From assembly GCA_913020435.1 (NCBI GenBank), contig CAJVZZ010000007.1, forward strand, positions 61,339 to 125,338: DNA of 64,000 nt. The letters run 5' to 3'. Position 1 is the first letter of the stretch, and every line of letters starts with the position of its first letter. Source of the DNA: an uncultured Flavobacteriales bacterium. Its GTDB lineage: Bacteria > Bacteroidota > Bacteroidia > Flavobacteriales_G > Salibacteraceae. Shown here piece after piece: positions 12,567 to 41,799 of this stretch. Below the pieces are notes generated by a model that was not told the DNA's origin, did no database searches, and was given only the letters and a program-made list of their open reading frames with translations. Made by a program: the position numbers and the translations under genes.

Positions 12567-12623
12567 ATTTTTGCTCATTCTTTGTATAAAACAATAATTT
12601 TGGCTGTTAAGCGTATTTGTGCC

Positions 12624-13655
12624 GTGAAAGCCATTATAACTATTTTTTTTCTTGCTATTTCCACTATATCCTTCGGGCAATTAGGAGGAGAAAGGAGTTA
12701 TACGTTTTTAGAAATCCCTTCTTCTGCTCGTTCTGCTGCTATGGGAGGAAGTTCTGCTGGAATTAAAGATGCAGATATCAATTTGATAAATGATAACCCA
12801 GCCAACTTAGACACCTCCATTGATAATCACTTAAGTATTAATTATGTCAACTTCGTGAGTGATATAAACGCTGGAAATTTTGCCTATGCTAGAAAAGCTG
12901 GAAAAGGAACGATAGGAATAACTGCACAATTTTTAGGTTATGGAAAATTTGACGTTGTTGAGGCAAACGGAATAAAAACAGGAGAGGAATTTAATGCAGG
13001 AGATTTTGCATTAAATATTGGCTACGGACGAGCGCTTGACTCCCTCTTTTCAATTGGTGCTGCCATTAAAACTGTTTACTCCAATTACTATTACAATCAA
13101 AGTGTAGCTTTAGGAATAGATTTAGGAGCAGCATATATAAGTAAATCAAAATATTTCACTAGTACAATTGCTTTGAGAAACATAGGCCGTTCGATAAACA
13201 AGAGCAGTAATCAGTCTCGAAATAAGCTTCCTACAAACGTTGAAATTGGTGCGGCCATCAAAATCCCCAAAGCTCCACTTCGTTTTTTCACTCAATACAA
13301 TAATATTCAGAAATGGGATTTAGGCTCTAATGACCCAAATTATGTTGCAAAAGAAAAAATCGATGCAAAAACCGGAGTTACCAATGTAAGAAAATTCAGC
13401 TCTGATAATTTATTTCGTCATTTAGTGTTAGGTGCCGATATAGTTGCTTCAGATAATTTCTCACTCACTTTTGCGTATAATTTTAGAAGAAGAAAAGAAT
13501 TAGCCGCTATTTCTAGAGGAGGCCTAAGCGGTATCTCTTTTGGAGCGATGATAAAGGTGAAAAAAATGCAGTTTAATTATTCTTTAAGTAGTTATCATAC
13601 TGCAGGAGTTTCTCACCACATTGGCATTACAAGTAATTTGAACGCACTGTTTTAA
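12624..13655 (+). CDS. porQ: Type IX secretion system protein PorQ
   Basis: The mature protein starts QLGGERSYTFLEIPSSARSAAMGGSSAGIKDADINL and continues with NPANLD and LSINYVNFVSDINAGNFAYARK, the hallmark start of PorQ. The rest is an outer-membrane beta-barrel of the PorV/FadL type. PorQ acts with PorU, PorV and PorZ at the outer-membrane attachment complex that cleaves sorting domains from T9SS clients. No ATG precedes the signal peptide. The track uses TTG at 12582; I prefer GTG at 12624, which gives MKAIITIFFLAISTISFGQ, a clean signal peptide. The stop is directly followed by the cmk ATG, so the two are coupled. Confidence 0.88.
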   Translation: MKAIITIFFLAISTISFGQLGGERSYTFLEIPSSARSAAMGGSSAGIKDADINLINDNPANLDTSIDNHLSINYVNFVSDINAGNFAYARKAGKGTIGITAQFLGYGKFDVVEANGIKTGEEFNAGDFALNIGYGRALDSLFSIGAAIKTVYSNYYYNQSVALGIDLGAAYISKSKYFTSTIALRNIGRSINKSSNQSRNKLPTNVEIGAAIKIPKAPLRFFTQYNNIQKWDLGSNDPNYVAKEKIDAKTGVTNVRKFSSDNLFRHLVLGADIVASDNFSLTFAYNFRRRKELAAISRGGLSGISFGAMIKVKKMQFNYSLSSYHTAGVSHHIGITSNLNALF

Positions 13656-23410: not shown

Positions 23411-23851
23411 TTACTGTTTAACAACTTGAAAACTTACTGATTCTTGTTTAGTATTAATGAATTTGAAGTGATAAACCCCACTTTCTCAATCCTGAACTTG
23501 AACGGTTTGTTCGGTTTCAGCTTGTTCAGTATACTCGGTTGAAGGAACTAGTTTACCTGCCGTATCAAATACATTTAACACCAAATTTTCATTCGTTTTA
23601 ATAATGAAATTTACTGATGAGTGAGCAGGGTTAGGATATAAAGATATGATAATGAATTCACTCATTTCTAATATCGAAGTAGTATCATCTCCTGCACCAG
23701 CTGAATCAGATTCCGAAGTTTACTGAAATCCTTATGTAATAATTAAACTCAAGAACCAGCTCTAGTAACAACCTAATAATCTACTCTTACTGGAGTTTGA
23801 ACAAAAACAAGCGTTAAAAAAAGAACATGCCTTTGTAACTATGGGTTTCAT
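23411..23851 (-). pseudogene. Decayed T9SS client: signal peptide remnant and sorting domain
   Basis: The minus strand keeps a start-like MKPIVTKACSFF, with a shifted frame continuing LTLVFVQTPV, consistent with a frameshift inside a signal peptide. After several stops one frame reads SILEMSEFIIISLYPNPAHSSVNFIIKTNE, then NVFDTAGKLV, a TGA stop, and ESGVYHFKFINTK to VVKQ. The YPNP start and GVY motif are diagnostic of the type A T9SS C-terminal sorting domain. The internal TGA and frameshifts make it non-functional, and almost nothing lies between the two ends, so the passenger domain appears to have been deleted. The track shows no ORF here. Confidence 0.8.
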
Positions 23852-24995: not shown

Positions 24996-25826
24996 ATGGC
25001 AATAGTAAAAATTATAAAATTCTTTTTCTCGAAAGCCTTTTGGGTAAGTATTGGGGTATATATAGTTCTGTTATTCATTGGAATTTGGTGCCTTCTTATT
25101 TACTTAGATGCAGTTACGCTGCATGCTCAAACAATTAAAGTTCCTGATTTGAGGTCCTATCACGAAACAGAATTAGAAAACCTGCTAAAGGTTGAAAAAT
25201 TAGATTATGAAATAATGGATTCTGTATTTGTACAAAATCAACAAGGCGGAATAGTGATCGAGCAAACTCCTGATTCAGGAGCATTTGTGAAAAAAGGGCG
25301 GAAAATTTATGTTACAATAAGTGCTTATGATGCTCCTAAAGTTACTATTCCAAATTTACAATACGATGACAAACGAAATGTTATTGCTCAATTACAATCT
25401 ATTGGATTAAGAATTGGAAATATTTTATATGTACCAGCAGCATGCACGGATTGCCTTGAAAGAATTGAAATTAATGGTGTTCCTCTAGAACCAGGAAACA
25501 GATTAGATCAAGGAACAACGGTTGACTTAGTTTTTGGAGGAGGCCAAAGCAATCAATTTATCCCAATGCCATCGCTAATTGGATTAACCTTAGAAGACGT
25601 TCGAGAAAAATTACTTCAAGCAGGATTGTTAATTGGATCTGCTGTTCCAGACGAAGAGTTTTCTGGAGAAGACAGCTTAAAGGCAAGGGTCTTTAAGCAA
25701 GTTCCTGATTTTAATAACGATGCAGTTTTATTCTTAGGTTCTACGGTACAAGTTTTCTTAACCACTGACAGCAATAAAATTCCAATAATTCCGATTGATA
25801 GGTTAGAAACAATCCTTCCTGAATGA
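24996..25826 (+). CDS. Membrane-anchored PASTA domain protein
   Basis: A short cytoplasmic start and one transmembrane segment (about residues 15-38) are followed by three PASTA repeats (about 45-112, 113-187, 190-265): VPDLRSYHETELENLL, IPNLQYDDKRNVIAQL and MPSLIGLTLEDVREKLLQAG, each ending near VYVTIS/VDLVFG/VQVFLTT. PASTA domains bind peptidoglycan fragments or penicillin-binding proteins. Here there is no attached kinase or transpeptidase. Its position next to ddl fits a cell-wall role. The last four bases (ATGA) overlap the next gene's start. Confidence 0.9.
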   Translation: MAIVKIIKFFFSKAFWVSIGVYIVLLFIGIWCLLIYLDAVTLHAQTIKVPDLRSYHETELENLLKVEKLDYEIMDSVFVQNQQGGIVIEQTPDSGAFVKKGRKIYVTISAYDAPKVTIPNLQYDDKRNVIAQLQSIGLRIGNILYVPAACTDCLERIEINGVPLEPGNRLDQGTTVDLVFGGGQSNQFIPMPSLIGLTLEDVREKLLQAGLLIGSAVPDEEFSGEDSLKARVFKQVPDFNNDAVLFLGSTVQVFLTTDSNKIPIIPIDRLETILPE

Positions 25827-28027
25827 ATTTTAAAATTACACTCTTCCTCTCTCTATTAATTAGCCAAATTTTCTGTGCAAGAGCCCAAGAGGAATTAGGG
25901 GTATTACCCTATAGAGCCGAACAATATTCAGAGCCAACTTTCGTGACAAACAATTTTGGGTCAAGAGCTGATCAGGACAGCTCTATTACTTATTTGCTTA
26001 ATACTTTAGACCTTCCTATTATAGATGACTTTTCAAAAAACCGCATAAAATATTTCCCTACTACAGTTGATAATCCAGCTGTTTTTGATTCCTTAAGTTT
26101 TCGTTTTGTTGTCAATAACCAACCGTTGGATTCTGTTGAATTCATGATAGATTCCGTTTTTAATGTTATCGTCGACCCGGTAACTGGTGATTTAGATTCG
26201 ACCTTGGCAGAACCATACAATATTGTCTTCTTTGACACAGGGTTCGTCTTTTTTCGAATTGATTCTTTTCTTGCTTACCCAAATTTCAGCTATTACATAC
26301 AGAATGGTGTAACTCGAATAATTAATTATCAAAGAGATAGTGTATTAGTTAACAAGCAACAATCACACTTTTTTGCAAGAGATGATCATTACAGTTATTG
26401 GATCGCCCCAGGGCCATTTTTAAACTATACAATGGCTATCGATCAGCCAACTCTGGGCGTTTTAACCTTTGATGGACTAGATAGTTTAGGCAATCCATAT
26501 GACAATTCATCGAAATTAACCTATGGTATTTCTGATTTTATGACATCAAAACCGATCAATTTATATGACTATAAGGACGGAAATAATAGAAAAAACTACG
26601 TAGTTAATGATTCTATTTATTTGAGCTTTTTCTATCAGGCTGAAGGAAATGGAGATCGTCCTGAAGAGGAAGATTCTTTAATTCTAGAATTTTACAATGT
26701 CAGAACCACACAGTGGAACAGAGTTTGGGGAGCTTCTGGTGATACCTCTAAGGAATTCGAAAGGGTTTCAGTTTTAATTAATGATACAAACTATATGCAA
26801 AACGGGTTCCGTTTTAGATTTAAAAACTACGCTACTCAATCTGGTAATTTTGATCACTGGCACTTGGATTACGTTCGGTTAATTGCAAATGGGGGGAAAG
26901 CTGATGAAATAAAAGATTTTGCAATTGTGAATCCTGTAAGATCATTTCTTAGAGATTATACCGCTATGCCCTGGGAACATTACAAAACAGATCCTAATAA
27001 ATTTATGGTAGACACTATATTTTTAGATCACATCAATTTAAGTAATAAATCAGATATTTTAAAAGCACGTTACACCATTTACAAATCCAATAGCGTCAAT
27101 TACTTGTACACATCACCAGAGGAACTGCGAACCTCAGTTATTGACAAAACAAGGCTTTCTTTTGAAGTAAAATCTTCAAATCGTTTTCAGTTTCCTAGTG
27201 ATAATGAAGAGCGACAGTGGTTTAGGTGTGAGTTAGAGACGTTCTCTTCTGATGATAGGTATAGTCCAAATGACACTTTGATTCACAACCAATTTTTTGA
27301 TCGATTTTACAGCTATGATGACCAATCTGCCGAAAAGACATATCAACTAAATCTAATAGGAACACACATCGCAGTAAAATTTAATACTCCGGTTCTGGAC
27401 ACTCTCAAAGGAGTACTAATTAACTTTGTTCAAACATTTGAAAGAGTTAAAAATCAAAAAGTGAACATCGTTATTTACAATAGTTTAGACACTGATCCAA
27501 TATTTGAATCTGGACCCGTTGAAATACAAAAAATGCCTCCTGGGAATTTTCAACGGTTCAATTTGCCTGAAAACGTGATTGTTGAAGGAGACTTCCATGT
27601 GGGATATGAACAGTTAAGTCAAGAAAAAACTTTCGTGGGCTATGATGTAAACTACAATAATCAAAAAAATACTTATATATCTGAGATTGAAGGGATTTGG
27701 TATAACTCAGGATTTACTGGTACTGTAATGTTACGAGCAGATTTTGGTGACGGAACAGAGAAACCATTAATAAAGCCTGAAGTAGAACTTGACAATATTC
27801 CAATTACCATTTTCCCAAATCCAACAAATGGCTTATTCTCAATTAAAGGAGCATCTGAATTAAACCCGGTTTATCTATATAGTTTGCAAGGACGTTTAGT
27901 AAAAAAATGGGTTCATAATGGAGGAAAAACATACGACGCAAGTGAATTACAAAACGGAATTTACATATTGATTGCGAATGACAATTCTGGAAATCCTATT
28001 TCATCCAAAGTAATAATTGCCAAATAG
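25823..28027 (+). CDS. Secreted protein with a T9SS type A sorting domain
   Basis: A signal peptide (MNFKITLFLSLLISQIFCARAQ) leads into ~630 residues of beta-rich sequence in which I recognise no catalytic domain. A C-terminal sorting domain of about 75 residues begins ITIFPNPTNGLFSIKG and has the GRLVKKW and LQNGIYILIAN motifs. The product should cross the outer membrane by T9SS and be released or anchored at the surface. The start overlaps the PASTA stop by 4 bases and rluD follows, so it sits in a conserved cell-wall/ribosome operon. Confidence 0.85.
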   Translation: MNFKITLFLSLLISQIFCARAQEELGVLPYRAEQYSEPTFVTNNFGSRADQDSSITYLLNTLDLPIIDDFSKNRIKYFPTTVDNPAVFDSLSFRFVVNNQPLDSVEFMIDSVFNVIVDPVTGDLDSTLAEPYNIVFFDTGFVFFRIDSFLAYPNFSYYIQNGVTRIINYQRDSVLVNKQQSHFFARDDHYSYWIAPGPFLNYTMAIDQPTLGVLTFDGLDSLGNPYDNSSKLTYGISDFMTSKPINLYDYKDGNNRKNYVVNDSIYLSFFYQAEGNGDRPEEEDSLILEFYNVRTTQWNRVWGASGDTSKEFERVSVLINDTNYMQNGFRFRFKNYATQSGNFDHWHLDYVRLIANGGKADEIKDFAIVNPVRSFLRDYTAMPWEHYKTDPNKFMVDTIFLDHINLSNKSDILKARYTIYKSNSVNYLYTSPEELRTSVIDKTRLSFEVKSSNRFQFPSDNEERQWFRCELETFSSDDRYSPNDTLIHNQFFDRFYSYDDQSAEKTYQLNLIGTHIAVKFNTPVLDTLKGVLINFVQTFERVKNQKVNIVIYNSLDTDPIFESGPVEIQKMPPGNFQRFNLPENVIVEGDFHVGYEQLSQEKTFVGYDVNYNNQKNTYISEIEGIWYNSGFTGTVMLRADFGDGTEKPLIKPEVELDNIPITIFPNPTNGLFSIKGASELNPVYLYSLQGRLVKKWVHNGGKTYDASELQNGIYILIANDNSGNPISSKVIIAK

Positions 28028-34726: not shown

Positions 34727-34756
34727 AAAAAACCCTGACCGAAGTCAGGGTTTTTT
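34727..34756 (-). terminator. Terminator after the giant beta-helix gene, with a UUCG loop
   Basis: On the minus strand the stem ACCCTGAC/GTCAGGGT is closed by the stable tetraloop TTCG and followed by a long T-run. It lies 17 bases after the stop at 34773 and just upstream of menF. Confidence 0.93.
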
Positions 34757-34772
34757 GAGATTTAAACTCTAA

Positions 34773-37700
34773 TTATTTAGATAACTGAATTCTGCTAACA
34801 ACTTTCTCAGTTCCTACTGTAGTCTCTACAAAGTAGATACCTGATGCATAACCAGTAATGTCTAGCGTTAGATTGTCTTGAGTAAGCCTAGTTTTCTCAG
34901 TAGTTTCAATTACTTGACCAACCGCGTTCATTACTCTTACAGTAACATCTTCTTCACTTGTTAAGTTGAACTCTAAGTTAATTACACCAGCTGTTGGATT
35001 AGGATAAATTCTGAATGCGTCAGTATTTACCAATACTCCAACTCCTGTAAACTCACTGAAGACATCAATCTGAGCTTTGAAAGAACAACCATTTGCATCA
35101 ACCACCGTTACCGTATTTACACCGTTTGGTAAGTTAGTAGCTGCAGAATCTGTCTCATTATTTGACCATAAGTAAGAAGAGTAAGGCTTTGTTCCACCAA
35201 TTGCACTTGCAGTTGCTTTCACATTATTCTCTCCACCATCAACAACATTAATGAATGAAACATTAATTGGATCTGGAGCATTAATCACAACTACTGTATC
35301 ATGATCACAACCAGCTGCATCTTCAACTCTTACTTGATAAATCCCTTTTGTCAATCCATTCAACTGTGTTGCTGAACTTCCAGTACTCCAAGAGTATTTG
35401 AAGGGACCCGTTCCGCCATTGATAGTCACTTCAGCAGTTGCCGTATCATAACTACAATCTACTGAAAGATCAGAAGGAACAGCAATTGGTGAATTAGGAT
35501 CGATAACTTTTACTTTACCAGTTTTAACACATCCTAATGAATCCGTAATGGTTACATCATAAAGACCTTCAGTCAAACCAACTGCTTTAGCAGTAGTTTG
35601 TGAATTACTCCAGAAATACGTGAATGGAGCAATACCACCTGCAACTGCTGCTTCAGCAGATCCATTTGCTAACTTACAAGCACTTGGAGTATTATCTTTC
35701 ATAATTACCTGAATTACAGGAGGATCTACAACTGTTATAGAAACAACTTCAGCACAATTACTCTTATCTGTTACAGTAACAGTGTAAGCTCCAGCTGACA
35801 AATTAGATTCTTTAGCACTTGTTCCGCCAGAATTCCAGTTGTAAGTATATCCAGGGATACCTTTAGTTACTGCAACTTCAGCAGATCCGTCATTATCACC
35901 ATTACAAGTAGGGTATGAATTAGCTGAAGAAACAAGTGGTCTTGCACCTAATACTTCGACTTCTAATTCCTCAGTACAACCTACACTATCGATGGCAGTA
36001 ACGTTATAAATATCACCAGGTATACCTGCAAGAGTATTTCCTATGTATCCGTTATCCCACTCATAAGTGTAAGGTCCATAAACACCAGTTGCCAATGCAA
36101 CAGCGACACCATCAGAACTATCACAAGTAGCATTAGTAACAGTCTCACTCAACACAATTTGCTGAGTTCTTACAACATTCGTTGTATCCATATAGATACA
36201 ACCAATATCATCTTCTACAGTTACTGAAATAATGCCTGGCTTGGTTACTTTAATAGAATCAAAGAACTCACCAGTTGACCAAGTACTGAATTTATACTCC
36301 TTATTAGATTTTACTTGAGCCGTTGAACCGAAACATAATAAAGTAGTATCCGCTAATACTTGTTTATCACCGATTTCACCAAAGTTTGCTCTTAAAATAA
36401 GTGTTGCGTTTCCAACTAAACCACCTTGAGCATTCATATCGGTCCAACTACCACCTGTACCTCTACCATACATAATACCTGGTCGCCCAGTTCTAATACT
36501 AGAGAATGCAAGTTCCATTCTTACTGGATTTATTTGTTGAATAGCAATCAAGTACTTTCCAGGCTGCAGGGTAACTCCACCACAACCAAATTCAAGAGTG
36601 TACCAACCAGTACCATTTGCACTAATTTGAAATGCTCTTGTAGAATCAATCACTTGCTGAACTGCTGGACTTGCTGTATCATTCACAGCATACAATTTAA
36701 GTTTAACATTAGCTCCTCTAACGGGATTCTGCAAATAGAATGTTCCTGATGTCAATTTATCTGTATTGAAAACTTCATAAACATTACCAAACTCACCAGT
36801 AGTTCCTGTAGCATAACCAAGTCCACCATTAGGATAAATACCTTGCAATGAATCATCCAATGCGTAAATAGAATCACTAACGTTGATAATATAATTCAAT
36901 GTATCATTTGTGCTATCACAATCTGACTCATTTATAGTTGTAAAAAAGTTAGCCGAAATCTGACCAGCAACACTTCCTACAGCTGCTAACACCGCAACCA
37001 TTGAATCTTGGTCTGGTACTAACGTATCAATTAAAGAATTTGATGTAACTCCAGCTACCAGAGCATTCACTCTAGTTCCTGTAATTGTATCGAGACCTCT
37101 GTTTCCTGCTTTTCCAAATACATATACACTTTGTCCGGTTGGAACCGAAGCGTATATTGAAGATACGTCAATCATTCCTCCATCAAAATAACAAGGAGTA
37201 AACTCATGTGCTCCTACATCATGAAAAGGAATGTTTCTAGGAGAATGGAAATAATCTGTTGCAACACCTACATTAAACGCTGTACTATCGTACTCGACAG
37301 CATTAACACGTAAATCAGCCTTTGAAGGAATCTTGAATCTAGGATCTGCATTTATAGCAGAAGCATCTCTTGTGAAACCGGTAGTTCCCCAACTTCCTGC
37401 TGTACCAGTCCAATAACCATTGCTTTTACGAGTATTATTTACCACACTTGGTCCCCACCTACTATTATATCTATTATACAATGTTGAATTTCCTCTTTCT
37501 GAAGTGAAAATATTATTGGATACATTAGTATTAACAGGATTGGCCTCATAAGCGCCATAAGAAGTTCCTGAAGTATTCATACGAACATTATTATGCTGAA
37601 TAGTAACCTGATTTCCATAATAAGTATAAATACCATACTGACCACTTGATGCTAAATCATTAGAAAAAGAAATAAAGTTATTTATGATTTCAGTAGTATC

Positions 37701-40700
37701 CGAAGCAAGTCTATTATAGTAATTTGTATAATAATCATAAATAACATACTGAAAACCAGTACTTCTCATATTGAAACGATTGTTCTTGTACTGCATGTCA
37801 TTATTATACCGACCAAAGAATACATACTGAGAACCTGTAGTAGTAGATTCGATAGAGTTGTCATTATAATGACAACTCGCTCCATAATTCGTATATACAT
37901 AATAGACACCTATATCATGGAACGCGTTTCCTTCTATTGTGATAAACTCCTCTCTCTGATTTCTTGCATTAGATCCACCTTGGATATAAATACCATAGTA
38001 ACCACCGAATATCTCATTATTAGTTATGAATAAACTTGAAGTATTCTTACCCCTCTTATCATAGATACAAGCATTTGCCGGTGTAGGACTACCTGCTTCT
38101 ACAATACAGCTGTCAATTGTTAAGCTATCATTTAATCCATCCAAATTGACAGTGTACCCTGAAGTACTTTTTATATGCATCTTATGAAACTTTACATGAG
38201 CGATATCGCCAAGTTCCAGATTCCCCTCAAGAATAGGCATCGTTGTGTTAGCAGGATCAGAAGTAAACGTCAAAGGATTAGTTCTTGAGACACCAACAAT
38301 ATTACTCAATGTAATACTTTCAACGAATGTCGAATCATCTACATGGAATGTAACTGGTCCGCAAATACCTAAATCATCTAAATCTTTTACAGCAGCAGCG
38401 AAACTTCCGAAGTCTCCATTAGTTCCAATAGTAAAAGTTCCATTTAGAGCAGGACGAACATCAAATTTAAAAGTATCATTCGCTATTCTTTGATCTGTTT
38501 GACCACTAGGTGAAACCGTATAAGCAACTATGCTATATGTTGAACCAGCATTAAGCGTAAGGTTACCTAAGGTTACGACTGTATCAAGACCTTTATCTAT
38601 ATTGGAACCACTAACGCTTAATGTAGCACCTGCAGTTGCAGCAGCGCCATTTACGCTATATGTCCAATGAACATCAAACGAAGTTAAATTCAAATATCCT
38701 AAATTAGCCACAGTAACATCAATCGCCTGAGCCCCAGTACATAATGCACCACTCGGAAAGCTTGTAACACCAGCATCATAATCTGGAACTACATATTCAT
38801 CTGCTCCCATTGTAGGGAACGTTGTGCTTCTAACTTCTCCATCAATATCATCAGTAATTCCAACAATAGGAGAACCTTCTCTGTACATAAGAGCACTAGC
38901 AGCATGCAAATCGCCTTTTGAGACATCAGTAAAAAGAGGGTCAGTATTTACCGAGTTTGCACCCTGATTGGTTCCGGCTATATTTTGACCATTTGGACAA
39001 TACCAGTTATTATAGTCTCTAGCTCCTGAACCCGATTGTTGGTAAAAACCATAACCTGCTTCAGCAAAACCGACATTGTTTCTAACATCAGTATTGTTTG
39101 CTGAACTTAAGTATAAAGATCTACTGTTTCCGCCAGTGCTTGCAGTATAAAATGAATTGTACTGAACATCCCACCATTGTGATCTACTTATTTGAAGACC
39201 GTAACTTGTTCCAGTATAATTACCATCTGTAACTGAGAACATGTTATTATTAATCTTACCATGATTTGTAGAAGATCCGTCACTCCATTGACAATCAAAA
39301 GCATAACCCTGAGCAATATTTACAGTGTTGTAAGTAACATCACCTAAAAAGTAATATCCATAAATACCTCTTACAAATCTACTATCATTACCAACAATTT
39401 TGTTTTTAGTAACTTTTACGTTTTCAGTATAAAACATATATACTCCATAAGTCATAAAGTTATACATCTCATTATTTTCAATCGTCCAACGTTGCTGTCT
39501 GCTAGCTCCATTACCTGATCCATAAATGTACATACTGTAGGCACCATTCATAATAACACAATTCTTTATTGTAATATCATTTGCCTGATTACCGCCAGTA
39601 TAGTCATAAATGACTCTGTCATAACTAAAGTTTGTTCCATTTTCACGACCAATAATAGAGTCACCGTTTAAGGTAATAAACTGATTGCTTCCTTTAAATT
39701 CAACAACACCACCATAATTTGTACCTAATGATTGTAACACGACTGTATCAATACTTACGTATTGTACACCATTAAAAAGAACCACATAATTGGCTGAAGT
39801 AACCGCGGTATTAAACTCCCATTTTGCCATATTAGCATTTGCAGGATCCGATTTAATTATAACCGTGTTTGTTGCGCTTCCGCCAGGAATAGCTCCAATT
39901 TCAACTTGTTCATTAAAAGTTTCATCTTGCAGGTGCAACTCAACCGCTCCACAAACTCCTTTGGAGGAAAGTTGTGCAACAGCAGCTGTTATGCTAGCAT
40001 AATCATCTGAAGCACCAGTCCCTACAGTATAAATACCAGACAATGCGGGAGAAATTGCAATCACTAATGTATCATTATTTCCTGCAGAATCAGTAACAGC
40101 ATTTGGAGCTGAAGACCACGCTTTAATAGTATAAGTAGTTCCAGATGCTAGAGTGTAATTTCCTAAAGTTACAGCAGTATCAACACCAATTGCTACAGCA
40201 GAACTTGCAACAACCAATTGAGTTTGAGCAACTGGAGTTCCTGCATTAACAGCAACAGACCAATCAACTTTAAACGAACTCATTGCAGTAGTACCAAAGT
40301 TTTTAACATTAACCTCAACAGACTGAGAACCAGAACAAAGAGAAGCATTAACCATACTTGTAACACCAGCATCGCTTGCAAACAATACATACTCATCAGC
40401 ACCAATACATGGAGCTATTGTATTTCTTGTTTCGCCATCATAATCGATAGTAATAGTTGATAAAGGAATTCCTGCAGCAAATAAATCTGTACTGTAGGTA
40501 TGTAAATCCGTAGGTGAATTATATTGGGGATCAACAGCTAATGCTTGAGTCTGGTTTGAATTTGACCCAGATACCGAATAAGCATTGTTATTGGAATTGG
40601 TGTAAGTTGAACTTTGTTGATAATATCCATAACCGCTAGCGTTGTTAAATGCACTGTTATTTCTAACAACAACTGAAGTACCTGAACTAACGTACAAAGC

Positions 40701-41726
40701 AGCATATGCTGTTGAAGAAGAAGTAGAATGCCAGTTAATTGAATTGTGAACAATATCCATATAATCTGGATCGTATACATACATACCTCGTCCCCTAGAA
40801 GAACCGCCGTCTGAGTATGTAACCATATTATTAGAGATTGTTCTTCTTGTAGTGTTTCCACTAGCACCACAACGGTAAAGATACATGGCATAAGCGCTAT
40901 TAGAACCACCTACCAATTCGATATAGTTTCCATTATAGGACGCATCATAACAGTAATAAGCATAAATACCGCTGGGAGAAGTGTATGCCTTTCTGTTTGT
41001 AACAGAATTATTATTAAACTTAAGCCCTTTGGTATAATATCCATAAAAACCTCTATACCAAAAATTCTTAATGGTATTATTTTCGATAGTCCAATTAGTC
41101 TGAAAACCTGAGGTACTATTACCATAAACATAAAAACCGTAAGAACCACCAGTTATTGTATTGTTCTTAAAAGTAATATCATCTGCATAATGAGTGGCAC
41201 CTCTTTCATCATAAACAACAGCATCCCATGTTGATGATGTCGCATTAGACCTTCCGACTAAATCGTTACCGTCAAAGGAAATAAATGAGTTTGAACCTCT
41301 AAAATCGACTACCCTACCATATCTAGTGCTAGTTGCTTTAATTTCGCATGAATCAATAGAAATATAAGATGAACCATTAAATCCAACTGTCCAATTCGTA
41401 CTAGACCCGTTACTAGAATACTGAATAACAACAGGAGTTGTGTTAGCAGGATCAGGCCGAAATCGAATCGTGTTTGTGGCCGAAGCGCCAGAAACACTTC
41501 TAAAACTTAACTGACCAGTATATGTACCTGAGCGGATGTCAAAAGTTACAGCGCCATTAACACCATTTGAGTTAAGCGCACTTACTGCGGAAGTAACCGT
41601 TGAGTAACTTGGACTTGTACCACCAATGGTATATGTACCAGACAACTGCCCGAAAGTGACCAATGAAACAAAAACCATCGACATAAGCGCCGCTGACTTT
41701 TTTAACCATGAATAACAATTTTTCAT
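34773..41726 (-). CDS. Giant secreted beta-helix protein with SprB-like repeats and T9SS sorting domain
   Basis: 2317 aa. The signal peptide ends near VTFGQ (residue 26). Three homologous modules follow, each opening with a GTYTIGG..YSTVTSAVSALNSNGVNGAVTFDI-like strand and running through Asn/Tyr-rich parallel beta-helix repeats: about 28-445, 562-975 and 1095-1510. Each closes with GADEY-like text and a CARDB-like beta domain (DAGVTSM..LCSG..). A jelly-roll-like region (about 1620-1780) precedes several SprB-like repeats (about 1810-2230, for example GGTGPFKYSWSTGSSATQLNGLTKGIYQVRVEDAAGC). The type A sorting domain (FRIYPNPTAGVINLEF to the end) closes it. Expected on the cell surface or released, as an adhesin or glycan-binding protein. 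It has a promoter with both boxes and its own strong terminator. Confidence 0.9.
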   Translation of the reverse strand: MKNCYSWLKKSAALMSMVFVSLVTFGQLSGTYTIGGTSPSYSTVTSAVSALNSNGVNGAVTFDIRSGTYTGQLSFRSVSGASATNTIRFRPDPANTTPVVIQYSSNGSSTNWTVGFNGSSYISIDSCEIKATSTRYGRVVDFRGSNSFISFDGNDLVGRSNATSSTWDAVVYDERGATHYADDITFKNNTITGGSYGFYVYGNSTSGFQTNWTIENNTIKNFWYRGFYGYYTKGLKFNNNSVTNRKAYTSPSGIYAYYCYDASYNGNYIELVGGSNSAYAMYLYRCGASGNTTRRTISNNMVTYSDGGSSRGRGMYVYDPDYMDIVHNSINWHSTSSSTAYAALYVSSGTSVVVRNNSAFNNASGYGYYQQSSTYTNSNNNAYSVSGSNSNQTQALAVDPQYNSPTDLHTYSTDLFAAGIPLSTITIDYDGETRNTIAPCIGADEYVLFASDAGVTSMVNASLCSGSQSVEVNVKNFGTTAMSSFKVDWSVAVNAGTPVAQTQLVVASSAVAIGVDTAVTLGNYTLASGTTYTIKAWSSAPNAVTDSAGNNDTLVIAISPALSGIYTVGTGASDDYASITAAVAQLSSKGVCGAVELHLQDETFNEQVEIGAIPGGSATNTVIIKSDPANANMAKWEFNTAVTSANYVVLFNGVQYVSIDTVVLQSLGTNYGGVVEFKGSNQFITLNGDSIIGRENGTNFSYDRVIYDYTGGNQANDITIKNCVIMNGAYSMYIYGSGNGASRQQRWTIENNEMYNFMTYGVYMFYTENVKVTKNKIVGNDSRFVRGIYGYYFLGDVTYNTVNIAQGYAFDCQWSDGSSTNHGKINNNMFSVTDGNYTGTSYGLQISRSQWWDVQYNSFYTASTGGNSRSLYLSSANNTDVRNNVGFAEAGYGFYQQSGSGARDYNNWYCPNGQNIAGTNQGANSVNTDPLFTDVSKGDLHAASALMYREGSPIVGITDDIDGEVRSTTFPTMGADEYVVPDYDAGVTSFPSGALCTGAQAIDVTVANLGYLNLTSFDVHWTYSVNGAAATAGATLSVSGSNIDKGLDTVVTLGNLTLNAGSTYSIVAYTVSPSGQTDQRIANDTFKFDVRPALNGTFTIGTNGDFGSFAAAVKDLDDLGICGPVTFHVDDSTFVESITLSNIVGVSRTNPLTFTSDPANTTMPILEGNLELGDIAHVKFHKMHIKSTSGYTVNLDGLNDSLTIDSCIVEAGSPTPANACIYDKRGKNTSSLFITNNEIFGGYYGIYIQGGSNARNQREEFITIEGNAFHDIGVYYVYTNYGASCHYNDNSIESTTTGSQYVFFGRYNNDMQYKNNRFNMRSTGFQYVIYDYYTNYYNRLASDTTEIINNFISFSNDLASSGQYGIYTYYGNQVTIQHNNVRMNTSGTSYGAYEANPVNTNVSNNIFTSERGNSTLYNRYNSRWGPSVVNNTRKSNGYWTGTAGSWGTTGFTRDASAINADPRFKIPSKADLRVNAVEYDSTAFNVGVATDYFHSPRNIPFHDVGAHEFTPCYFDGGMIDVSSIYASVPTGQSVYVFGKAGNRGLDTITGTRVNALVAGVTSNSLIDTLVPDQDSMVAVLAAVGSVAGQISANFFTTINESDCDSTNDTLNYIINVSDSIYALDDSLQGIYPNGGLGYATGTTGEFGNVYEVFNTDKLTSGTFYLQNPVRGANVKLKLYAVNDTASPAVQQVIDSTRAFQISANGTGWYTLEFGCGGVTLQPGKYLIAIQQINPVRMELAFSSIRTGRPGIMYGRGTGGSWTDMNAQGGLVGNATLILRANFGEIGDKQVLADTTLLCFGSTAQVKSNKEYKFSTWSTGEFFDSIKVTKPGIISVTVEDDIGCIYMDTTNVVRTQQIVLSETVTNATCDSSDGVAVALATGVYGPYTYEWDNGYIGNTLAGIPGDIYNVTAIDSVGCTEELEVEVLGARPLVSSANSYPTCNGDNDGSAEVAVTKGIPGYTYNWNSGGTSAKESNLSAGAYTVTVTDKSNCAEVVSITVVDPPVIQVIMKDNTPSACKLANGSAEAAVAGGIAPFTYFWSNSQTTAKAVGLTEGLYDVTITDSLGCVKTGKVKVIDPNSPIAVPSDLSVDCSYDTATAEVTINGGTGPFKYSWSTGSSATQLNGLTKGIYQVRVEDAAGCDHDTVVVINAPDPINVSFINVVDGGENNVKATASAIGGTKPYSSYLWSNNETDSAATNLPNGVNTVTVVDANGCSFKAQIDVFSEFTGVGVLVNTDAFRIYPNPTAGVINLEFNLTSEEDVTVRVMNAVGQVIETTEKTRLTQDNLTLDITGYASGIYFVETTVGTEKVVSRIQLSK

Positions 41727-41769: not shown

Positions 41770-41799
41770 CAAATTTAACTTAATTTTTAACCTAACAAA
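41770..41799 (-). promoter_or_regulatory. Promoter of the giant beta-helix gene (-33 and -7 boxes)
   Basis: The minus strand has TTTG, 18 bases, then TAAATTTG, fitting the Bacteroidota consensus TTTG-N(17-23)-TAnnTTTG. The predicted leader is about 37 bases. It is the only promoter in the window where I see both boxes at proper spacing. Confidence 0.6.

Follow-up and report, generated by a model that had tools for sequence, protein, structure and literature searches.

The 64,000-nucleotide stretch of DNA that we analyzed (the window) carries on its minus strand an open reading frame at 34773-41726 that encodes a predicted surface protein of 2,317 residues; these coordinates agree exactly with those of the initial annotation, and the gene sits on contig C7 of a 2.95-Mb draft genome. 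Read from the N terminus, with all features on the minus strand, the protein begins with a putative signal peptide (41646-41726, residues 1 to 27), recognized by sequence pattern only (a basic start, a hydrophobic core, and an FGQ end). Three full modules follow (residues 28 to 560, 561 to 1094, and 1095 to 1625), each composed of a beta-helix and a CARDB-like domain. Module 1 has its right-handed beta-helix at 40386-41645 (residues 28 to 447; AlphaFold and Pfam Beta_helix) and CARDB-like domain 1 at 40047-40385 (residues 448 to 560); module 2 has its helix at 38781-40046 (residues 561 to 982) and CARDB-like domain 2, placed by alignment to domain 1, at 38445-38780 (residues 983 to 1094); and the stalk-proximal module 3 has its helix at 37197-38444 (residues 1095 to 1510; AlphaFold and homology to modules 1 and 2) and CARDB-like domain 3 at 36852-37196 (residues 1511 to 1625). 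Beyond the modules we placed two domains absent from the initial annotation, a jelly-roll-like beta-sandwich (36363-36851, residues 1626 to 1788; AlphaFold, pLDDT mostly about 72 to 84; 71% identity in G002) and an Ig/PKD-like domain (36156-36362, residues 1789 to 1857), the latter proposed from its sequence pattern alone, with low model confidence. Five SprB-like repeats (35052-36155, residues 1858 to 2225) and a T9SS type A C-terminal sorting domain (34776-35021, residues 2236 to 2317) complete the protein; SprB-like repeats and a T9SS sorting domain had been proposed at the outset. The Pfam scan returned Beta_helix, NosD, Por_Secre_tail, and four SprB stretches (PF13573, E 3.6e-16); the count of five repeats was made by eye and by repeat alignment.

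The neighboring genes are menF-menD-menA-menC-menE, a response regulator, and an AddB-like gene. In the 115-base gap to the divergent response regulator, 44 bases upstream of the start codon, lies a candidate Bacteroidota-type promoter, TTTG-N18-TAAATTTG (41770-41799, minus strand), which matches TTTGN{17,20}TANNTTTG exactly; this pattern is expected 3.2 times by chance in the window, so its placement is the whole of the case for it. At the other end, an intrinsic terminator with a 13-pair stem, a 4-base loop, and a T tract (34727-34756, minus strand; 1 found, 0.0 expected) lies between the module gene and menF. An operon with the menaquinone genes was rejected because of this strong terminator, despite the conserved gene order, and the module gene is predicted to form a separate transcription unit.

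The three modules, each about 532 residues long, are homologous copies. Their opening motif, described initially as recurring at intervals of about 530 residues, is found at residues 30 (GTYTIGG), 564 (GIYTVGTG), and 1096 (GTFTIGTNG), with spacings of 534 and 532. Modules 1 and 2 are 38% identical along the whole module (BLAST E 6e-107; alignment score 917 versus a shuffle maximum of 96), modules 1 and 3 are 27% identical (E 2e-22; 341 versus 101), and modules 2 and 3 are 28% identical (E 2e-28; 349 versus 91). These scores exceed the best of 100 shuffles 3.4- to 9.6-fold, and the triplication is therefore real and old; self-alignment, suggested at the outset as a way to study the duplications, thus bears out homology in all three pairs. 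In a tree of 64 modules, which is unrooted and has some long branches, seven positional orthologues have their stalk-proximal modules together in one clade (100/99), and modules 1 and 2 fall in a second clade and were already separate before the split from G001. The same tree indicates that two modules of G002 duplicated independently (100/99).

AlphaFold predicts for module 1 (67 module sequences; pLDDT 94.1, pTM 0.90) an N-terminal helix cap, a right-handed beta-helix, and a beta-sandwich. The second model, like the first a prediction, covers residues 1095 to 1865 and shows the same fold in module 3 with another beta-sandwich after it; its mean pLDDT is 79.1, with values mostly over 90 in the first 300 residues, few sequences behind the jelly-roll-like and Ig-like parts, and an unreliable Ig-like part. 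Given also the identity of module 2 to module 1, the beta-helix originally suspected in every module holds up, and the outcome named in advance as refuting it, a missing helix or unrelated folds, did not appear in the two models. The opening motif corresponds in the models to the cap and first coil of each helix, a cap that presumably resembles those of other beta-helix enzymes. For the sandwich, Foldseek finds the CARDB structure of Pyrococcus PF1109 (3idu; TMt 0.65 to 0.80), domain 1 at TMt 0.65 to 0.70 and domain 3 at TMt 0.75 to 0.80 with an rmsd of 2.1. Pfam CARDB was matched by sequence in 8 of 67 module relatives and had no sequence match in this protein; the earlier guess at the domain was apt, and we call it CARDB-like because the fold agrees but the sequence match is absent. 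Foldseek matches of the helix include the alginate epimerases AlgE4 and AlgG, the pectate lyase Pel9A, LnbX, and phage tailspikes, none of which superposes more than modestly; a viral structure library added nothing beyond generic beta-helices and tailspikes of phages and giant viruses. Phage tailspikes and depolymerases share the right-handed beta-helix fold but superpose poorly over the whole chain, and they belong to virions, whereas this protein is predicted to be T9SS cargo of the cell surface. The second model also overlapped in Foldseek with sialidases, a galactose-binding module among them, but too weakly for use.

In the predicted structure, the asparagine richness of the helices resolves into an eight-step asparagine ladder with one Asn per turn. 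The eight residues (Asn 189, 217, 240, 267, 300, 328, 357, and 380) are conserved at 82 to 100% across 67 modules; seven of them end a two-residue inter-strand turn in successive coils, and the eighth lies at a turn edge. The asparagine ladder is a structural device described in PL6, and conserved ladders have reportedly been seen only in alginate-acting helices (PMC6879350). By analogy, we regard the ladder here as a lead toward polyanionic glycans, not as evidence of activity. It would suit a polysaccharide lyase, hydrolase, or epimerase in which each helix acts on a repeated glycan and triplication makes the enzyme processive, as would the PDB matches, which are mostly glycan enzymes (AlgE4, AlgG, Pel9A, the lacto-N-biosidase LnbX, and phage depolymerases), yet whole-module TM-scores to enzymes are only about 0.25 to 0.5, and the pattern of conservation speaks against catalysis. 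From residue 93 to residue 391, every charged or His column stays below 60% across the 67 modules. D324 is the only invariant charged residue in the helix body of the clade of modules 1 and 2, and D1205, D1343, and H1378 of the module 3 clade lie far apart in sequence. Conserved charged residues do occur after the helix (D428, D430, R434, D444, and E445) and in the CARDB-like domain (D452, D546, and D552). The alginate enzymes PL6, AlgG, and AlgE4 share with this protein the right-handed beta-helix, the N-terminal cap, and the asparagine ladder, whereas the tandem copies joined by CARDB domains are particular to this protein and the PL6-type catalytic Lys/Arg/His set was not seen in it, as judged by conservation rather than by residue-level structural superposition. 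With no lyase or epimerase catalytic set conserved, glycan processing is not supported, and we consider such an enzyme improbable. Of the initial reading as a modular adhesin or glycan-processing protein, the modular surface protein built of homologous beta-helices therefore survives and the glycan processing does not.

The module occurs commonly as a tandem unit across Bacteroidota: of 198 genomes sampled from the phylum, 49 had a match at E 1e-10 or better. A scan of genome contigs, queried with six closer modules, gave 220 confirmed coding stretches, from which we retained 77 loci. Among 83 fetched open reading frames with near-complete modules, some of them cut by contig or locus ends, 20 carried one copy, 27 two, 13 three, 14 four, 6 five, 1 six, and 2 seven, so that at least three copies were present in 36. 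One to seven copies are usual and three are thus ordinary; the triplication cannot be counted as a special feature, and because modular beta-helix proteins are common across the phylum, we judge the find to be solid though rather unremarkable. The scans run here turned up no curated family model spanning the full beta-helix and CARDB unit, nor did the literature terms tried retrieve any paper naming this architecture; a definition of the unit would supply names for portions of many T9SS proteins now called "hypothetical." A further observation is a 5,038-residue open reading frame with seven modules (L037 3353-18466), in which the tree pairs modules 2/5, 3/6, and 4/7, a pattern that fits block duplication of three modules. 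Modules were also present on a 104-kb contig labeled Azovibrio restrictus, a proteobacterium (L105 9917-15481), for which binning contamination is more likely than transfer.

Export by the T9SS with a type A tail is predicted from the sorting domain, which exceeds both cut-offs (TIGR04183, 41.3 bits versus 23, E 1.1e-10; PF18962, 55.4 bits versus 27, E 7.9e-15), and from SprA (2371 bits) and PorV (395 bits) in the same genome, both over cut-off. In these respects, and in its signal peptide and repeat-rich body, the protein differs in nothing essential from other T9SS type A multidomain surface proteins of Bacteroidota; its own mark is the three beta-helix and CARDB modules. With about 123 type A tail matches over cut-off in 2.95 Mb, the genome is densely supplied with T9SS cargo; it also has 12 type B matches over cut-off. 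SprB of Flavobacterium johnsoniae is likewise a large T9SS-exported surface protein with SprB repeats, and it has a type B tail and needs SprF, while RemA has a type A tail and uses PorV (PMC10202324). The SprB repeats, the T9SS genes, a GldJ-like protein in the genome (443 bits, just below the 458 cut-off), and the type A tail of RemA, a minor gliding adhesin, would all be compatible with a gliding adhesin like SprB or RemA, moved over the surface by the T9SS motor. However, in F. johnsoniae the tail decides the destination: the type B tail of SprB gives helical movement, and SprB given a type A tail becomes static or is released (PMC12618676). The type B tail (TIGR04131) is absent from this protein, whose tail answers to TIGR04183 only, and none of the genome's TIGR04131 places falls at the gene; the twelve type B tails over cut-off all lie at other loci. 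No adjacent PorP/SprF-like gene was found among the neighbors examined, and the protein is much shorter than SprB and has a beta-helix tip. RemA shares the type A tail, the likely PorV route, and a proposed surface-binding role, but a Pfam scan at E up to 1 found no lectin family in this protein, which has beta-helix modules instead. The type A tail together with the tail-swap result therefore makes an SprB-like gliding role unlikely, which weakens the motility suggested initially, and we rate a motor-driven gliding adhesin of either kind as very improbable.

Three further places in the window touch on the T9SS. A second PorV-family protein (12582-13655; 162 bits to NF033709 at the corresponding place in the genome), directly before cytidylate kinase, is possibly a dedicated T9SS shuttle. 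At 24996-28027, a type A T9SS cargo of 734 residues, with no Pfam match in its body, comes after a PASTA-domain protein. A type A tail match with an in-frame TGA (23414-23641, minus strand) is probably the remnant of a broken surface-protein gene.

At least six relatives have a positional orthologue of the module gene, flanked like it by an AddB-like gene and menF. The order AddB-like gene, module gene, menF-menD-menA is found in G000 (the genome that carries the window) to G003, G005, and G008; the G014 locus is similar, with menF not appearing in the comparison. The nearest named relative found, "Flavobacteriales bacterium UBA6770 isolate FRAM18_bin114" (L030), is 91.9% identical over 16 kb around the gene, and other close relatives are MAGs labeled Crocinitomicaceae or Flavobacteriales (G002 to G014 are single genomes, several of them drafts). 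Among the positional orthologues the stalk is conserved, and the distal half holds none to three beta-helices or other domains: three modules in the window, G001, and G008; a GEVED domain (tested by Pfam here only), a CARDB-like domain, and three modules in G002; a GEVED-like domain and two modules in G005 and G014; and an unassigned domain and one module in G003. Compared with G002, the modules are 39 to 40% identical, against 82% for the SprB repeats, 89% for the tail, and 60 to 75% for neighboring genes. Identity to G001 is about 88% over the whole protein, except for CARDB-like domain 1, which is 63% identical with a dS of 1.4 against about 0.3 in the surrounding modules. The divergence has sharp edges near residues 440 and 570, at the domain boundaries (window 40047-40385 versus L030 11261-11599, from a sister species), and looks like replacement by a divergent allele; in the four genus genomes no donor was found, and the two alleles are each other's best match. 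Module dN/dS against G001 is 0.19 to 0.26 and therefore gives no sign of positive selection.

Since a type A tail leads to static anchoring or release in F. johnsoniae, the most likely reading, and one that we hold to be probable, is a T9SS-exported fibre, statically anchored on the surface, with a variable tip that would bind glycans or surfaces multivalently; the anchoring, the type of ligand, and adhesion itself we infer. The analysis itself shows the predicted fold, the homology, the type of tail, SprA and PorV in the genome, the synteny, and the variability of the tip. The signal peptide and type A tail would direct the protein through SprA and PorV and so out onto the cell surface; there the tail would probably be cleaved off and the C-terminal end attached. 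The five SprB-like repeats, the Ig-like domain, and the jelly-roll-like domain would form a conserved stalk, from which the three beta-helix and CARDB modules would extend outward. A repetitive ligand, for instance polysaccharide carried by algae, particles, or neighboring cells, is the likeliest partner of their long exposed helix faces; the repeated substrate suggested at the outset is plausible, and several modules per fibre would give avidity. Across relatives, the distal modules are gained, lost, or exchanged for other domains and diverge fast while the stalk is kept, so that the ligand range would change and the anchor stay. This reading draws on the high-confidence helix and CARDB folds, the type A tail with SprA and PorV, the conserved stalk, the Asn ladder at a short turn of eight coils, and the lack of a conserved catalytic set. 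Against it, cargo with a type A tail can instead end up wholly in the medium, relaxed constraint would likewise account for modules that diverge quickly or are lost, and the about 120 other type A-tailed places in the genome likely serve many functions. The same variability could instead belong to a structural or shielding fibre (a spacer, coat, or phage-facing decoy) that has no specific ligand and whose tip varies to escape phages or grazers; the invariant residues are structural (the Asn ladder and caps), the outer modules change quickly and are subject to replacement, and sister species differ sharply in one CARDB domain. We consider a shield of this kind unlikely, as dN/dS is well under 1, the stalk constraint fits an adhesin too, and contact with phages or grazers is conjecture.

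Tentatively, and with more doubt than belief, we suggest that the addB-like/menF locus encodes a family-wide protein of fixed stalk and exchangeable tip, whose beta-helix/CARDB modules and other domains are each swapped whole by recombination and so change what marine Crocinitomicaceae-related bacteria bind or evade; the marine habitat is our reading of isolate names. Whatever the ligand, syntenic relatives whose proteins carry from zero to three modules form a ready-made series in which to ask which ligand is bound and whether avidity follows from module number. At the menF-adjacent place of G011 (L028 9960-16179) lie two tandem module-free versions of the gene.
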